A stretch of 64,000 nucleotides of DNA from an uncultured Pelagibacteraceae bacterium. GTDB taxonomy: Bacteria; Pseudomonadota; Alphaproteobacteria; Pelagibacterales; Pelagibacteraceae. This document shows, one piece after another, positions 13,771 to 20,509 of this stretch. Each line of letters starts with the position of its first letter. Position 1 is the stretch's first letter. The stretch spans positions 124,001-188,000 of the forward strand of contig CACGMC010000001.1 of assembly GCA_902574035.1 (NCBI GenBank). Direction: 5' to 3'. Position numbers and translations under genes: made by a program. The notes below the pieces were generated by a model that saw only the letters and a program-made list of their open reading frames with translations, did not search any database and was not told the origin of the DNA.

Positions 13771-14724
13771 TTATTTTTGGATAGTATTCAGTTTGTTCAA
13801 CTCAGCTAAAAATTCAGGAAGAGCTTTAAATAAATCTGCTTCTAAACCATAGTCTGCAACACTAAAAATTGGAGCTTCACCATCTTTGTTAATTGCGACA
13901 ATTATTTTACTCTCTTTCATACCAGCTAAGTGTTGAATTGCTCCAGAGATTCCTACAGCAATATATAAATCGGGGACTACAACTTTACCTGTTTGCCCAA
14001 CCTGATGATCGTTACTTATGTAACCTGCATCGACAGCAGCTCGTGATGCACCAACAGCAGCATTAAGCTTATCAGCGATATCTGTGATTAATTTAAAATT
14101 TTCTCCACTTTCTAATCCTCTACCACCTGAAACAACTATTCGCGCAGTTCCAAGTTCAGGTCTTTCTGATTTAGTTTCTTCTCTTTTAATAAATTTTGAT
14201 ATATTCGGCACATCAACAGCTTCAATCTTATCAACTTGTGCAGAGCCACCAGTTTTTTCAGCAGGATCAAAAGAAGTTGGTCTTATTGTTACACACTTCT
14301 TTTTGTCATTGCTTTTGACTGTAGCAAAAGCATTTCCAGCATAAATAGGTCTAATAAAAGTATCAGGACTTGATACTTTAATGATATCACTTACTTGTGA
14401 AATATCTAACGCAGCAGCTACTCTTGGCATAAAATTTTTTCCAAACGTATTTGCAGACGCTACAACGTGATCATATTTTTCAGCAGTCTTTGTTACTAAA
14501 GGTGCTAAATTTTCAGGTAAATAATTTTGATAATTTGGCGAGTCACACCATAAAACTTTTTTAACAAGCGGGACACTCGCCACTTCTTTTGCAACATTTT
14601 CACAATTTGCTCCAGCTACTAAAACATGAACATCACCATCAATTTTCGATGCTGCTGTAATAGCATTTAAAGTAAATGGTTTTAATTTTGAATTATCGTG
14701 TTCTGCAATTAATAATACTGACAT
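13771..14724 (-). CDS. etfA: electron transfer flavoprotein, alpha subunit
   Basis: 317 residues. The C-terminal FAD-binding region carries the family signature GASRAAVDAGYISNDHQVG followed by PDLYIAVGISGAIQH. The N-terminal alpha/beta domain begins VLLIAEHDN. EtfA pairs with EtfB to move electrons from flavin dehydrogenases (here most likely dimethylglycine dehydrogenase) to ETF-QO. It overlaps the etfB stop by one base (TAATG). Confidence 0.97.
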   Translation of the reverse strand: MSVLLIAEHDNSKLKPFTLNAITAASKIDGDVHVLVAGANCENVAKEVASVPLVKKVLWCDSPNYQNYLPENLAPLVTKTAEKYDHVVASANTFGKNFMPRVAAALDISQVSDIIKVSSPDTFIRPIYAGNAFATVKSNDKKKCVTIRPTSFDPAEKTGGSAQVDKIEAVDVPNISKFIKREETKSERPELGTARIVVSGGRGLESGENFKLITDIADKLNAAVGASRAAVDAGYISNDHQVGQTGKVVVPDLYIAVGISGAIQHLAGMKESKIIVAINKDGEAPIFSVADYGLEADLFKALPEFLAELNKLNTIQK

Positions 14725-15473
14725 TACAATACCTTAGCCTCATTTTTAAGTTTACTTACTAACTCAGCAACATTTGCAACTTTAATTCCTGCTTTTCTTT
14801 TAGGCGGTTCTTCAACTTTTATTTGCTGAATTCTATTCGTAAGATCTATTCCTAAATCTTTTGCATTTATTTGTTCCATTGGTTTCTTTTTTGCCTTCAT
14901 AATATTCGGTAAAGAAGCAAACCTTGGTTCGTTTAATCTCAAATCACAAGAAACTACAGCTGGTAAATTTACTTCAATTGTTTCTAGTCCTTCATCAATT
15001 TCTCTAACTATATCAACAGACTTCTCTTTTAAATTTACCTTAGAAGTAAAAGTAGCTTGAGGCCAATTAAGCATTGCAGCTAACATTTGACCAGTTTGAT
15101 TACAATCATCATCAATAGCTTGTTTTCCTAAAAAAACCATATCCGGTTTTTCTTTTTCTACAATTTTTTTTAATATTTTTGCTATTCCTAACGGCTCTAT
15201 ATAGTTATCAGCTTTAACGTGAATTCCTTTATCAGCACCTACTGCAAGAGCTTTTCTTATTGTTTCTTGTGCTTTATCTTCACCAATTGAAATAGCGACA
15301 ACTTCTTTTACTTTGCCAGATTCTTTAAGTTTAACTGACTCTTCCACAGCATTATCATCGGGAGGATTAGTTGACATTTTTACATTATCTGTATGGACAC
15401 CAGAGCCGTCCTCTTTAACTCTAATTTGAACGTTGTAATCAATAACCCTTTTAACTGCTACTAAGATTTTCAT
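14724..15473 (-). CDS. etfB: electron transfer flavoprotein, beta subunit
   Basis: 249 residues beginning [20 protein letters not shown], the standard EtfB opening. The AMP-binding region ([16 protein letters not shown], then [12 protein letters not shown]) and the [21 protein letters not shown] recognition loop are present. It overlaps the preceding dehydrogenase gene and the following etfA by single bases, so the three proteins are translationally coupled. Confidence 0.97.
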
Positions 15474-17905
15474 TAAGCTCTGAGTAATTTATTTTCGACA
15501 TCGTAAGGAGAGTCTTCTACTATAGAAGCCTCATGCATTTTACCAAGAATATCAATTTTTAATTTTTTTCCTACTTTTGCTAGCTCAGGTTTAACCATTC
15601 CTAAAGCAATAGATTTGTTTAATCTAAATCCAAAATCACCACCTGTAGCTCTTCCAACTACTGATCCATTATCATAAATTGGATTATTTCCTAAAACATC
15701 AGCATCTGTAACACCATGAATCTCCATTGTTACTAATTTATTTGAAAAGCCTTTAGCTCTCCATTTGTCTAATGCCGCACGGCCAATAAAGTCCCCTTTA
15801 TTTGGATGTATAAATCTATCCAATCCTGACTCGTAAGGAGAATATTCAATTGATAATTCTGTGCCCACTAGTTTATAAGATTTCTCCACTCTCAAACTAT
15901 TCATAGCTCTTATACCATATGGTTTAATACCGAACTCTTTTCCTGCCTCCATAAGTTGATCAAAAATATGATTTTGATATTCGATTGGATGATGTAACTC
16001 CCACCCTAATTCACCTACAAAGTTTACTCTCATAGCATTACAAGGCGCTAATCCAATGTTAATATTTTGAGCACTTAACCACTTAAATCTCTCATTAGAA
16101 AAATCTGATCTTGAAACCTTTTGCATTAACTGTCTTGCTTTAGGGCCGGTTACTACTAATACTCCCATGCTGTTTGTTAAATTTTCATATTGAACAGTCC
16201 CATCTTCTGGCATCCATTTATGTATCCAATCGTGATCAAGTCTTTGATATGCACCAGCGGAAACTAAATAAAAACTATCTTCAGCTTCTCTCATTATGGT
16301 AAACTCTGAATGAACCCCACCTTTTGTATTTAATGCGTGACAAAGATTAATTCTTCCTATTTTTTTTGGTAATTTATTGGCAACTAGTTTATCTAAAAAC
16401 TCTTCAGCCCCTGGACCTTTAATTCTACATTTCCCAAAGGCGGTCATGTCTAGTAATCCGACGTTTTCTTTAACATTTTTACATTCACGTTCAACATTTT
16501 TAAACCATTTAGATCTTCTAAATGACCAATCGTCTTCTTGTTTCTCTCCTTTTTCTGCAAAAAAGTTTGCTCTCTCCCATCCAAACTTTTGACCGAAAAC
16601 AGCTCCAAGTTTTTTTAATCTATCATAACAAGGTGCTTGTCTTAATGGTCGACCAGCTTCACGCTCTTCATCTGGATAGTGAACAGTAAATACATTCGCG
16701 TAAGCTTCCTCATTTTTAGCTTTAAGATAAGATTTTGTAACGTATGCACCGTATCTTCTTGGTTCTACGCCTAACATATCTATTGTTGGTTCACCGTCTA
16801 TTATCCACTCAGCTAACTGCCATCCAGCACCACCTGCTGCTGTAATACCAAAACTATGTCCTTCATTTATCCAAAAGTTTTTTAAACCCCAAGCAGGCCC
16901 AACAATAGGATTTCCATCAGGAGTATAAGCAATCGCTCCATTATAAACTTTTTTCACACCAACTTCTCCAAATGCTGGCACTCTTTTAATTGCTCCCTCT
17001 ATATGTGGAGCTAATCTATCCAAATCCTCTTGAAATAATTCATACTCACTATCTTTTGAAGGTCCATCTACGTAACAACATGGAGCACCTTTTTCATACG
17101 GACCGAGTAATAATCCACCAGCTTCTTCTCTCATATACCAAGAGTTATCACTATCTCTTAATACTCCCATCTCTGGTTTACCTTCTTTTTTTCTTTTTTG
17201 AATTTCTGGATGTGGCTCAGTTACGATGTATTGATGCTCGACTGGCATTACTGGTATTTCTAAACCTACCATACGCCCTGTTTGTCTTGCAAAGTTACCA
17301 CTACAAGAAACTACGTGTTCACAAGTAATGTCCCCCTTATCTGTTTGAACTACCCAACCATCTTTTGTTTGTTTAATTCCATTTACTGTAGTGTTTCTGT
17401 AAATTTCTGCACCATGATTTCTTGCACCAGTTGCCATAGCTTGTGTCAAATCTGCTGGCTGAATATAGCCATCTTCTGGATGCTGAATTGCTCCGACTAA
17501 ACCCTCTATATTACATAAAGGCCAAATTTCTTTTACTTGTTCTGGTTTTAAAAATTTTACATCAACTCCAATTGTTTTTGCAACACCTGCGTATTGATGA
17601 TATTCATCCATCCTATCTTGAGTTTGAGCTAATCGTATATTTGAGACCACACTGAAACCAACATTTTTTCCAGTTTCTTTTTCTAAAGATTTATAAAGTT
17701 GAACAGCGTATCTGTGAAGTTGACCAACAGAATAACTCATATTAAATAAAGGCAATAAACCAGCTGCGTGCCAAGTTGAACCAGATGTGAGCTCTTTTCG
17801 TTCAATAAGAACTACGTCTGACCAACCTTTTTTAGCTAGGTGATAAAGCGTACTGACGCCAACAACACCTCCACCAACTACGACTACTTTAGTTTTTGAT
17901 TTCAT
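15473..17905 (-). CDS. dimethylglycine dehydrogenase-type flavoprotein
   Basis: 810 residues. In order: a DAO FAD domain ([17 protein letters not shown], about 7-23), the FAD attachment motif [10 protein letters not shown] with His46 (His carries covalent FAD in dimethylglycine and sarcosine dehydrogenases), an FAO_M linker near 380-430, and GcvT plus GcvT C-terminal barrel domains over the last 370 residues for THF. It removes an N-methyl group, giving methylene-THF. The coupled etfB-etfA-ETF-QO genes supply its electron route. Dimethylglycine is the likely substrate because a separate sarcosine oxidase is present, but sarcosine dehydrogenase is possible. Confidence 0.9.
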
Positions 17906-17919
17906 AGAAATATTATGAA

Positions 17920-17948
17920 ATCTTATTTTGAAGATGTTGTCACGTCAA
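17920..17948 (-). promoter_or_regulatory. predicted promoter of the dimethylglycine dehydrogenase/ETF operon
   Basis: Reading the minus strand, TTGACG (17948-17943) is followed after 17 bases by TAAGAT (17925-17920). The -35 box matches sigma-70 in five of six positions. Transcription would start about 17913, leaving a leader of fewer than 10 bases before the ATG at 17905. It lies in the 65-base gap after metY and would make this operon independent of the metY riboswitches. Confidence 0.5.
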
Positions 17949-17970
17949 GCAAATCTAATTCACAAAGCAA

Positions 17971-19263
17971 TTATGCAGCTAAAGCTTGTTCAATATCCGC
18001 AATAATATCGTCAGGATGCTCAATACCGATGGACAATCTGACGTACCCAGGCGTTACACCAGCTTCAGCCAACTGTTTATCATTCAATTGACTATGAGTT
18101 GTTGATGCTGGGTGAATTGCTAAACTTCTAGCGTCACCAATGTTTGCAACATGATAAAGCAGCTTTAAATTATCTATAAATTTAGCGCCAGCTTCTTTAG
18201 TTCCTAAATCCATACCAACTAAAGATCCATAGCCACCTTTCATATATCTTTTAGCTCTTTCTCTGATTTCACCTTGGTGATTAGTTGGATAAATTACATT
18301 CTTCACTTTTTTCTGTGACTCGAGAAATTTAACCACTTTTTCAGCGTTAGAACAATGTTGCTTCATTCTCAATGCAACAGTTTCAAGTCCCTGTATTATT
18401 TGAAAAGCATTAAATGGTGACAACGGAGCTCCTAAATCTCGCAAGAGAACTACACGAGCTCTGATGGCAAAAGGAATATTTGCTCCAGTTAGTTTTGGAA
18501 CATCTCTTCCCCATACCGCTCCATTGTAACTTGGATCAGGTTCATTAAACAAAGGTTGTCTCTTTGGATCTTTTACCCAATCAAAAGTTCCACTATCAAC
18601 TATTATTCCACCAATCGATGTACCGTGACCAGCGATGTACTTAGTTAAAGAGTGCATCACTACTGCCGCTCCATGTTCTAAAGGTTTACAAATTACAGGT
18701 GCTGCAGTGTTATCGATAATTAATGGGATACCATGTTTTTTACCGATGTCAGCAACTTCCTTAATTGGAAAAACTCTTAGATAAGGGTTAGGACATGACT
18801 CACCGTAATAAGCTCTTGTTTTTTCATCAGTTAATTTTTCAAAGTTTTTTGGATCAGCAGGATCTGCGAACCTTACTTCGATACCTTGCATCCTCAATGT
18901 ATTTTTGAAAAGATTTACTGTTCCACCGTATAAATCTGTTGAAGAAACAATATTATCACCAGCCTGACAAACGTTTTGAACACAGAAAGCCGACGCAGCT
19001 TGACCAGAACCCACTGCTACAGCAGCCATTCCGCCTTCTAAAGCCGCAACCCTTTTTTCTAACACATCACAAGTGGGATTCATTATTCTTGTGTAAATAT
19101 TTCCAAATTCCTTCAATCCAAATAAATTTGCAGCTGTTTCTGCATTTTTAAATTGATAAGAAGTAGTTTGGTAAATTGGTACAGCTACAGATGTTGTTGC
19201 AGGATCAGCTCTATATTCTCCACCATGCAAACCTATTGTTTCTGGATGTTTTATTTTACTCAT
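17971..19263 (-). CDS. metY: O-acetylhomoserine sulfhydrylase (aminocarboxypropyltransferase)
   Basis: 430 residues from the ATG at 19261-19263 (MSKIKHPETIGLHGG). This is the usual MetY length and longer than CGS or MetZ enzymes. The PLP lysine lies in HSLTKYIAGHGTSIGG, and the family motifs ENAETAANLFGLKE-like and NIYTRIMNPT are present. It makes homocysteine from O-acetylhomoserine and sulfide in methionine synthesis. The open frame extends to 19320, but those codons are the SAM-V aptamer and the GGAG at 19275-19272 serves the ATG at 19263. Expression is controlled by SAM-II and SAM-V riboswitches. Confidence 0.95.
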   Translation of the reverse strand: MSKIKHPETIGLHGGEYRADPATTSVAVPIYQTTSYQFKNAETAANLFGLKEFGNIYTRIMNPTCDVLEKRVAALEGGMAAVAVGSGQAASAFCVQNVCQAGDNIVSSTDLYGGTVNLFKNTLRMQGIEVRFADPADPKNFEKLTDEKTRAYYGESCPNPYLRVFPIKEVADIGKKHGIPLIIDNTAAPVICKPLEHGAAVVMHSLTKYIAGHGTSIGGIIVDSGTFDWVKDPKRQPLFNEPDPSYNGAVWGRDVPKLTGANIPFAIRARVVLLRDLGAPLSPFNAFQIIQGLETVALRMKQHCSNAEKVVKFLESQKKVKNVIYPTNHQGEIRERAKRYMKGGYGSLVGMDLGTKEAGAKFIDNLKLLYHVANIGDARSLAIHPASTTHSQLNDKQLAEAGVTPGYVRLSIGIEHPDDIIADIEQALAA

Positions 19264-19271
19264 TTTTTTTT

Positions 19272-19328
19272 CTCCTTTTTTAGTACTTCGACGAAATGTC
19301 AGGTGTACAATACAGTTCAAATACCCGG
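19272..19328 (-). ncRNA. SAM-V riboswitch (translational)
   Basis: On the minus strand, directly before metY, the segment has the SAM-II-like core in the form described for SAM-V: GGGTATTTGAACTGTATTG, closing ACACC, a small hairpin GACATTTCGTC, and CTAAAAAAGGAG. The GGAG at 19275-19272 is both the end of the aptamer and the metY Shine-Dalgarno site. Ligand binding would hide it and stop translation. SAM-V is known from Pelagibacter and marine metagenomes, including tandem arrangements after SAM-II. I matched it by eye, not with a covariance model. Confidence 0.8.
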
Positions 19329-19341
19329 TTTTAATTTTGTT

Positions 19342-19370
19342 AAAAAAAAACCACCGACTAAAGCGGTGGT
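19342..19370 (-). terminator. SAM-II-controlled terminator in the metY leader
   Basis: On the minus strand, ACCACCG (19370-19364), a 7-base loop and CGGTGGT (19356-19350) form a perfect 7-bp stem followed by nine T (19350-19342). CGCTTTAG at 19365-19358, in the 5' arm and loop, is the exact complement of CTAAAGCG at the 3' end of the SAM-II aptamer. It can therefore pair there as an antiterminator when no SAM is bound. Confidence 0.9.
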
Positions 19371-19380
19371 CTGAGACTTA

Positions 19381-19432
19381 ACGCTTTAGCTGGATTTGTT
19401 AAGCGCCCGCAATTTGTATTAACTCGGCGCTA
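19381..19432 (-). ncRNA. SAM-II riboswitch (transcriptional)
   Basis: Read on the minus strand, the element runs GCGCCGAGTTAA, then ATTGCGGGCGC, then AACAAATCCAGCTAAAG. This lines up base by base with the SAM-II consensus: P1 GCGC/GCGC, the ATTGC joint, and the A-rich strand ending AGCTAAA that forms the pseudoknot. The aptamer starts near the predicted transcription start and is followed by an intrinsic terminator. SAM-II riboswitches control met genes in Alphaproteobacteria. Confidence 0.9.
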
Positions 19433-19439
19433 TAGGATA

Positions 19440-19469
19440 ATTATATCAAGTTTAATGAATACTAGTCAA
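19440..19469 (-). promoter_or_regulatory. predicted metY promoter
   Basis: Minus strand: TTGACT (19469-19464), an 18-base spacer and TATAAT (19445-19440). The -10 is a perfect sigma-70 box and the -35 matches five of six. Transcription would start about 19433, exactly at the 5' edge of the SAM-II aptamer. It lies just after the stop codon of the upstream VOC gene. Confidence 0.7.
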
Positions 19470-19472
19470 TGA

Positions 19473-19871
19473 CTAATTCTTCATTGTTTTCAGCTCTAAA
19501 ACGTTACCGTGTGGATCTTCTATAAAGAATGTTTCTTGTTCCTCTTTTTGTCCCTTAAACCTAGTGTACGGATTATCAAGATAATTAACTTTATCGTGTT
19601 GTTCTATATTTTTCTTAATTTTATCGAATACATCTGAAGTTAAATGAACTCCAAAATGAGGAACAGGAACTTTTCCCATATCTACGTCATGTCTCTCTCT
19701 TGGAAGCTTAATTTCAGTTTTGTGTAGAGTAAGTTCATTGCCCCAAAAATCAACATCAATCCATTTATCTTTTTCTCCATTACCTAATTTGCATCCAAGA
19801 ACGTTTTTATAGAAGTCAATTGCGGTATCTAAATTACCTGCTGGTATAGCTAAGTGAAACGGTTTACTCAT
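19473..19871 (-). CDS. VOC (glyoxalase/dioxygenase fold) family protein
   Basis: 132 residues. It begins FHLAIPAGNLDTAIDFYKNVLGC, the first beta-alpha-beta unit of a VOC domain, and ends with FIEDPHGNVLELK, the usual metal-site Glu strand. Candidate metal ligands are His4, the HFGVHLT histidines and the terminal Glu. VOC enzymes include glyoxalases, dioxygenases and resistance proteins, and no substrate can be read here. It is divergent from cysE, 59 bases away, and lies upstream of metY on the same strand but is separated from it by a promoter. Confidence 0.85.
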   Translation of the reverse strand: MSKPFHLAIPAGNLDTAIDFYKNVLGCKLGNGEKDKWIDVDFWGNELTLHKTEIKLPRERHDVDMGKVPVPHFGVHLTSDVFDKIKKNIEQHDKVNYLDNPYTRFKGQKEEQETFFIEDPHGNVLELKTMKN

Positions 19872-19930
19872 AATTTAAGACGTTATAAATAATTCTTTAA
19901 ATTTTTCAAGTAGTCATTATATACATAACT

Positions 19931-20509
19931 ATGATCGATTATTTAGAGTCTATAAAATCTAGAGACCCTGCGGCAAAATCTTTAGTGAGTATCATTCTCA
20001 CTTACCCAGGTGTGAAGGCTGTATTTTTTCATAAAATATCAAATTTTTTCTCTATCGCAGGATTTGATTTAATTGCTAGAATTATTTCTCAAACAGCGAG
20101 ATTTTTTACAGGTATAGAAATACATCCAGGGGCAAAAATCGGAAAAAATTTATTTATAGATCATGGAATGGGAGTAGTGATAGGTGAGACTTCAGAAATT
20201 GGAGATAACGTTACAATTTATCATGCTGTTACTTTAGGAGGCATTTCACCAAGTATCGATAGCGAAAGACAAAGGCATGAAAAAAGACATCCCTCAATTG
20301 GAAATAATGTTGTAATAGGATCTGGTGCTCAAATTTTAGGCCCAGTTAAAATTGGAGATAATGCTAGAGTAGCCGCTAACGCAGTTGTGGTTAACGATGT
20401 CAAAGAAAATGCAACTGTAATAGGAATTCCTGCTAAAGAAATTAAAATTGGAAACAAAGGTACATTCAAACCTTACGGCGTTGATGACAAAGTTAAAGAT
20501 GAAAAGTAA
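19931..20509 (+). CDS. cysE: serine O-acetyltransferase
   Basis: 192 residues. The left-handed beta-helix of hexapeptide repeats runs from about residue 60 ([18 protein letters not shown]) through VTLGGISP to NAVVVNDV, with the acetyltransferase His in DHG. The N-terminal helical domain is short, so this is the small CysE type, compared with about 273 residues in E. coli. It makes O-acetylserine for cysteine synthesis. The stop overlaps the msrB start region by 11 bases. Confidence 0.93.

Follow-up and report, generated by a model that had tools for sequence, protein, structure and literature searches.

Tandem SAM-II-type and SAM-V aptamers with a candidate antiterminator in the metY leader of a Pelagibacteraceae bacterium: a putative two-stage OFF switch

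The leader of metY was analyzed in a window of 64,000 nucleotides, the whole stretch of DNA considered here, from an uncultured Pelagibacteraceae bacterium. Upstream of metY, the minus strand carries, from 5' to 3', a promoter, a SAM-II-type aptamer, an intrinsic terminator and a SAM-V aptamer with the ribosome site. This leader is very probably a two-stage SAM-sensing OFF switch, in which the SAM-II-type aptamer and an antiterminator would act on transcription and SAM-V would then act on translation. A first-pass annotation had given the same order of parts, which was correct, and had called the arrangement known from SAR11-type bacteria, in agreement with PMC9481103, PMC11508383 and PMC5069961. 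As judged from sequence, the leader belongs to this tandem SAM-II/SAM-V (bi-mechanism) class, the SAM-II part being assigned by homology to bhmT of P. ubique. The original report described 120 such tandems and a later survey 149, in which SAM-II precedes a terminator and SAM-V covers the ribosome site (PMC9481103). For P. ubique, earlier papers place the tandem at bhmT and only SAM-V at metY (PMC5069961, PMC2704228).

The promoter is of the sigma-70 type (TTGACT-18-TATAAT, 19469-19440, minus strand) with 11/12 matches in the promoter scan, and lies at the SAM-II edge, where the first-pass annotation had placed it. The scan by itself is not above chance, with one promoter found against 2.8 expected. 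Among 140 terminator-bearing leaders, a promoter-like pair was found no more than 55 nt from P1 in 132, compared with 162 of 1400 shuffles, and the -10 element ends 4-9 nt before P1. A promoter close to SAM-II was described by Corbino et al. (PMC1273637), and transcription of the metY leader is expected to start a few bases past the promoter, at the P1 edge. The SAM-II-type aptamer (19431-19381, minus strand), recognized by its likeness to P. ubique bhmT SAM-II and by P2a covariation, comprises the P1 stem AGCGCC/GGCGCT (19431-19426/19407-19402), the P2 pseudoknot strand GCUAAAGCG (19390-19382) and the short P2a pairs C19416-G19382 and A19417-U19381, the latter of which covaries among leaders. 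The terminator on the same strand (hairpin 19372-19348; stem ACCACCG/CGGUGGU, 7-nt loop and U-run together at 19370-19342) was identified by the terminator scan, which found two such sites against 0.2 expected from shuffles, and by leader alignment. SAM-V follows at 19335-19269 (minus strand), with U at position 14 (base 19314), which makes it of the type called direct here. The Shine-Dalgarno (SD) sequence AGGAG (19276-19272) lies in its 3' end, 8 nt before the ATG at 19263. The regulated gene, metY (17971-19263, minus strand), encodes an O-acetylhomoserine aminocarboxypropyltransferase of 430 aa (TIGR01326, 567 bits, cut-off 495; PF01053). The metY neighbourhood (13771-20509) also holds an FAD oxidoreductase with a GcvT domain (15473-17905) and two ETF subunits after metY, together with a glyoxalase-fold gene (19473-19871) and cysE (19931-20509; NF041874, 215 bits).

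In the proposed first stage, polymerase would start at the edge of the SAM-II-type aptamer. With SAM scarce, the antiterminator 5' strand CUAAAGCG (DNA CTAAAGCG, 19389-19382), which is also the 3' strand of P2, would pair with CGCUUUAG (DNA CGCTTTAG, 19365-19358), located in the terminator 5' arm and loop. This pairing would form once CGCUUUAG is made, before the terminator 3' arm exists, so that no terminator forms and transcription continues. With SAM bound, CUAAAGCG would be held in the P2/P2a pseudoknot, and the terminator would fold and stop transcription. In the second stage, SAM-bound SAM-V would hide AGGAG in read-through transcripts. The binding of SAM by each aptamer, the cotranscriptional timing and the effect on metY are predicted from these parts. 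The parts themselves, their conservation, the covariation of P2a and the shared bases of both CUAAAGCG pairings are observed directly: P2/P2a and the antiterminator use the same bases and therefore compete.

To assess conservation, leaders were collected from the order, in which SAM-V was found in 190 of 397 genomes; in the genus it was found in 131 of 169. A script parsed 181 leaders: 133 at SAM-V places of the genus, one of them that of the window, and 48 in the rest of the order. The latter comprise 30 returned with the search and 18 picked later, out of matches in 190 genomes. A terminator of the GGTGGT-U form is present in 140 of the 181, of which 131 are in the genus. The terminator tandem is thus found at 131/133 SAM-V places of the genus, and the two exceptions share a genome whose contamination is estimated at 7%. 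The first-pass annotation had given the complementary 8-mers at exactly the coordinates above and read them as an antiterminator, and both the conservation and the folding data are in favor of this. The motif GCTAAAGCG is present in 140/140 terminator-bearing leaders, window included. An exact complement of CTAAAGCG occurs in 134 and one with wobble in two, so that 136/140 are fully pairable and four are one pair short. Among further leaders, L274, L277 and L278 fall short by one pair and L285 has only six pairs. As a control, the 41 bases that follow GCTAAAGCG were shuffled, without regard to relatedness among leaders; CGCTTTAG arose 191 times in 200000 shuffles by base and 33 times in 20000 by dinucleotide.

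Folding was carried out with ViennaRNA without pseudoknot and without ligand. In the window, the antiterminator fold has an energy of -25.7 kcal/mol against -23.7 for the terminator, with an antiterminator probability of 0.96, and of 0.98 in a nascent RNA that ends at CGCUUUAG. For bhmT, the corresponding energies are -23.4 and -20.1, with a probability of 0.99. Across the 140 leaders, the probability of the antiterminator has a median of 0.98 in nascent RNA, where it exceeds 0.5 in 131/140, and of 0.97 at full length. Full-length, ligand-free RNA is predicted to favor the antiterminator in 123 leaders (window and bhmT included); the other 17, which include L196 and L197, favor the terminator. 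A single H-type pseudoknot holding both the terminator and the antiterminator was considered sterically unlikely on inspection by hand, as it would leave too few loop bases.

The assignment of the first aptamer to SAM-II was examined with Rfam. Of the two covariance models that the first-pass annotation had proposed for a check, SAM-V matched at 70.9 bits, whereas SAM-II gave only 13.0 bits against a cut-off of 36 (RF00521, SAM_alpha; E 0.56 on a 111-base stretch). The annotation had named two outcomes that would refute it, a missing SAM-V hit and a complement not conserved in relatives, and neither occurred. RF00521 was not listed at E<=1 when 3 kb were searched, its score at the metY leader is no better than at other places in the same genome, which is the noise level, and 0/169 genomes of the genus pass its cut-off. 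This failure favors a rival explanation, in which the first aptamer has decayed, the terminator is a constitutive attenuator, only SAM-V senses SAM, and the complement is kept for another reason, for instance a protein site or terminator efficiency. The same model, however, gives no match at E<=1 in the P. ubique bhmT SAM-II, which is reported to bind SAM when truncated. Because it misses this aptamer too, the RF00521 cut-off is not decisive here, and Rfam was discarded as a judge of SAM-II in this case. Weak Rfam matches to sroD, isrD, BcKCsr7 and others lie far below cut-off and rest largely on the terminator hairpin.

The closest homologue compared was the bhmT SAM-II itself (L180, the bhmT tandem of genome G011, P. 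ubique HTCC1062, whose SAM-V places match the intergenic coordinates in PMC2704228). The two sequences are identical at 41/52 positions of the aptamer, 27/31 of the terminator and 2/10 of the spacer. The bhmT tandem (Poiata 2009, through citing papers; Feng 2024) and that of the window share the part order, the GCUAAAGCG strand, the CGCUUUAG complement and the terminator core; the antiterminator complement is therefore not peculiar to the window. They differ in the gene and in where it starts: in the window it is metY, beginning directly at the SAM-V ribosome site, whereas in bhmT an SD / anti-SD / SD segment intervenes and the gene start is 58 nt downstream of the first AUG. They also differ in aptamer base 10, which is G in the window and U in bhmT. 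With RF00521 the window aptamer shares P1, the P2 pseudoknot, the GCUAAA core, a promoter just before P1 and a terminator after P2, as reported in PMC1273637. It differs in P2a, which has about 2 bp, whereas PMC6061858 gives 5 bp for 60% of SAM-II.

Covariation provides further evidence. In 137 leaders (L045 was dropped from the 138 unique ones), the P1 closing pair is U-A in 36, C-G in 45 and U-G in 56. The P2a pair 17/55, formed by the base after CTAAAGCG with a P1-loop base, is G-C in 53, A-U in 37, U-A in 32 and G-U in 10, and is unpaired in five. It is thus paired in 132/137 (96%), with three Watson-Crick types, against 50% in shuffles that ignore kinship, and the eight neighbouring registers reach at most 61%. 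Since this covarying pair is next to CTAAAGCG, the SAM-bound pseudoknot spans the antiterminator strand. The antiterminator, being nearly invariant within the order, shows little covariation of its own. In the alignment of the 138 unique leaders, the terminator stem and six of the seven loop bases are nearly invariant, in contrast to the variable spacer and seventh loop base. Of the eight SAM-binding bases listed for bhmT SAM-II (U10, U11, A20, U21, U22, U46, A47, A49; PMC11508383), seven are identical in the window, the exception being position 10. Core positions 10 and 20 covary in relatives, as G/C in 87 and U/A in 37 of 137 leaders (124 together), and the G/A combination of the window (19423, 19413) is rare, at 11/137. 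With G10 and A20, the SAM affinity of the window aptamer may differ.

The uncommon G/A core, like the unresponsiveness of the full-length bhmT SAM-II to SAM in vitro (PMC11508383), would fit a decayed aptamer. Neither the covarying P2a pair in 132/137 leaders nor GCTAAAGCG in 140/140 is expected after decay, and a free terminator loop should vary throughout, as its seventh base does. The decayed-aptamer explanation is accordingly considered unlikely. The first aptamer is best described as SAM-II-type and homologous to the bhmT SAM-II, not filed as an RF00521 member, and is predicted from its sequence to bind SAM.

Another example in the same genome is the SAM-II before metX (NF001209, 382 bits, cut-off 331), which has a different complement, AGCTAAAC/GTTTAGCT, in the same relation. 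In this metX leader (L002:1501-1620), SAM-II, terminator and U-run are followed directly by the GGATG of metX; from this layout, the hairpin may also affect translation. The wider class was tested with 57 loci, L211-L267, of which 17 came with the search and 40 were picked from a list. In 53 parsed loci (L220, L234, L251 and L262 being unparsed), the best complement contains GCT, CTA, TAA or AAA of the strand in 30, the shuffle p is <=0.05 in 16, and the pairing probability exceeds 0.5 in only five. A second parse of 54/57 found GCNGNG in the terminator in 35, with an outer pair of G-C in 20, A-U in three, U-A in three, G-U/U-G in two and other in seven. In these other Alphaproteobacteria, SAM-II strands such as TGCAGCT and TGCGGCT often occur with AGCTGCG and AGCCGCG in the terminator. 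The sequences suggest an antiterminator in another register across SAM-II of other Alphaproteobacteria, although the picture is not clean.

For the second aptamer, the match to RF01826 (70.9 bits, E 6.5e-11, gathering cut-off 41, covariance model) is the only SAM-V match at E<=0.001 in the genome. The first-pass annotation had described a SAM-V-like aptamer ending in the ribosome site, and AGGAG indeed lies within the 3' end of the match. All five SAM-contacting bases (U9, G20, U45, A48, A49; listed in PMC11508383) are present by eye. The aptamer is a member of RF01826 and is predicted to bind SAM; compared with the Rfam family, it is a full-length match with the SD in its 3' end, upstream of metY, and nothing notable is different.

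The first aptamer could alternatively serve the SAM-V stage, as an allosteric or folding partner with the linker, the hairpin being mainly a spacer. The bhmT paper points in this direction by proposing masking by the linker together with a second factor of unknown nature (PMC11508383). So do 41 of the 181 leaders, including P. ubique metY and mmuM, in which a SAM-II-like pattern lies directly before SAM-V without a GGTGGT-T terminator. These terminator-less leaders are of the metY or mmuM type (L010-L039, L122, L148, L181, L182, L184, L186, L190-L192, L194, L195); both CCGAT and ATCGG occur in 22/41, and Rfam listed no SAM-II in L181, L182, L184 and L186. Against such a partnership, the hairpin and the U-run behind it make up a standard intrinsic terminator, SAM-II always stood before a terminator in the original 120 tandems (PMC9481103), and the same aptamer and terminator occur without SAM-V before a methylenetetrahydrofolate reductase gene (L268). 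This explanation is therefore regarded as very improbable, and the two-stage switch is retained. Leaders of other genera of the family (L268, L269, L271, L273, L276, L279, L280, L283) likewise have the same SAM-II-type aptamer and terminator without SAM-V; the gene behind them starts FEFFP, and in L268 it is the methylenetetrahydrofolate reductase (PF02219, 106 bits).

It is also reasonably likely that the SAM-II strand has a triple use, in SAM contacts, P2/P2a and the antiterminator, that the published SAM-II 'inactivation' is the antiterminator at equilibrium, that SAM-V of many relatives works by an SD/anti-SD/SD relay, with base 14 being C in relay leaders and U in direct ones, and that the AUG of the published construct is not the bhmT start. 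Feng et al. reported that bhmT SAM-II responds to SAM when truncated and is silent in the 177-nt tandem, the cause of which the authors did not understand (PMC11508383). They found that the linker changes most, especially C68 to C110, and used the term 'linker-mediated inactivation' (PMC11508383). The words 'antiterminator' and 'terminator' are absent from the main text of that paper. When L180 is numbered from UUGCGC, a numbering fixed by three published primers at 83-102, 98-117 and 128-147, C45UAAAGCG52 pairs with C66GCUUUAG73, that is, CUAAAGCG at 45-52 with CGCUUUAG at 66-73. The SAM-binding bases U46, A47 and A49 of bhmT (list: PMC11508383) fall inside the antiterminator strand. From sequence and folding, the pairing 45-52/66-73 could explain the loss of the bhmT SAM-II response next to the linker. 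Feng et al. also reported that an oligo on 83-102 restored SAM-II (PMC11508383). Because this oligo lies outside the proposed pairing, the antiterminator is weakened as a simple cause of the silence. As a guess, the oligo helix might stack on the terminator and favor it.

The relay concerns 96 of the 181 leaders, all within the 140 with a terminator, in which the gene does not lie at the SAM-V ribosome site. The distance from the SD to the gene start is 60-107 nt in the 93 leaders with a gene identified. The genes are metY (69) and a homocysteine S-methyltransferase gene, here called bhmT (24; PF02574 in L068 and L180). In L161 and L162, the gene is weakly like cobalamin-independent methionine synthase (L161: PF01717, 19 bits, below the cut-off of 21). 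The order SD (in SAM-V), anti-SD, second SD and AUG was found in 95/96 spaced leaders (for example L069, L068, L180 and L183, and also L274 and L285), L185 being without the three-strand pattern. Folding of separate segments gave pairing of the first SD (hairpin A) and of the second SD (hairpin B) in 95/95, with means of -17.7 and -17.2 kcal/mol and a mean z near -5 in 24 leaders (every fourth of the 95); the segments were cut around the pattern-found anti-SD, so that both results are favorable by choice of segment. When 75 nt beginning at the first SD were folded uncut, this SD was paired in only 35/96 spaced leaders versus 7/43 direct metY leaders. The low share speaks against the relay; it would also be expected of two near-equal alternatives, though it does not prove switching. 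The stem letters differ by type (GATGAAC/GTTCATTC, GATGAAATC/GATTTCATC, GAGCT/AGCTC and others), and the pairing is therefore kept while the letters change. Base 14 of SAM-V is C in 96/96 spaced leaders and U in 44/44 direct leaders with and 41/41 without a terminator. Of 20 later places, 17 were parsed (all but L275, L282 and L284) and eight have a readable SAM-V: five are spaced with C, two direct with U, and L270, the exception, direct with C. According to a proposal by Huang and Lilley, bases 14 and 15 have the start of the SD as their pairing partner (PMC6061858).

In the ON state of the relay, the anti-SD would pair with the SD inside SAM-V and leave the gene's own SD free. In the OFF state, SAM would hold the SAM-V SD in P2a, and the anti-SD would pair with the gene's distant SD. 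On sequence grounds, the relay likely keeps the OFF logic in spaced leaders; the leader in the window is direct and has no relay. Six leaders from outside the genus lack an AUG at a distance of 4-16 nt behind the first SD, namely L183, L187, L188, L189 and L193 (before bhmT) and L185 (gene not found); in these six, the first SD therefore probably serves for pairing rather than as a ribosome site. Such an AUG is found in 89/96 spaced leaders; the other seven are without it, one of them (L073) having GTG. A conserved leader peptide encoded by the short upstream ORF was set aside, as there are 56 distinct peptides of 2 to 55 aa. In 45/89, however, the ORF is 17 aa long, many being close to MNRIKLRSFFSRKTEKK, and a leader peptide is possible within this subgroup. 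In L180 (tandem positions 160-233), the published construct length of 177 nt stops precisely at an AUG outside the bhmT frame, which opens a 23-aa ORF. The bhmT gene itself begins at position 233 (1127292), immediately beyond the intergenic region of PMC2704228, and the anti-SD is at 203-214. If the relay is true, the 177-nt bhmT construct (2024) omits the gene's start codon and the signal-carrying strand.

No antiterminator or relay for the SAM-II/SAM-V tandem was found in the literature searched, which was partial and did not include Poiata 2009. What is added here is the evidence for the antiterminator, what this means for the SAM-II result in the literature, and the relay in relatives; an earlier description of the antiterminator or the relay may exist. 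For the bhmT aptamer, a base-level reason is offered why SAM-II binds SAM alone and not beside its linker. The two-level riboswitch known from bhmT in one cultured strain would be carried to metY in most sampled genomes of this SAR11-type genus. SAR11-type bacteria have few regulators, and how they gate methionine synthesis would for that reason be of wider interest.
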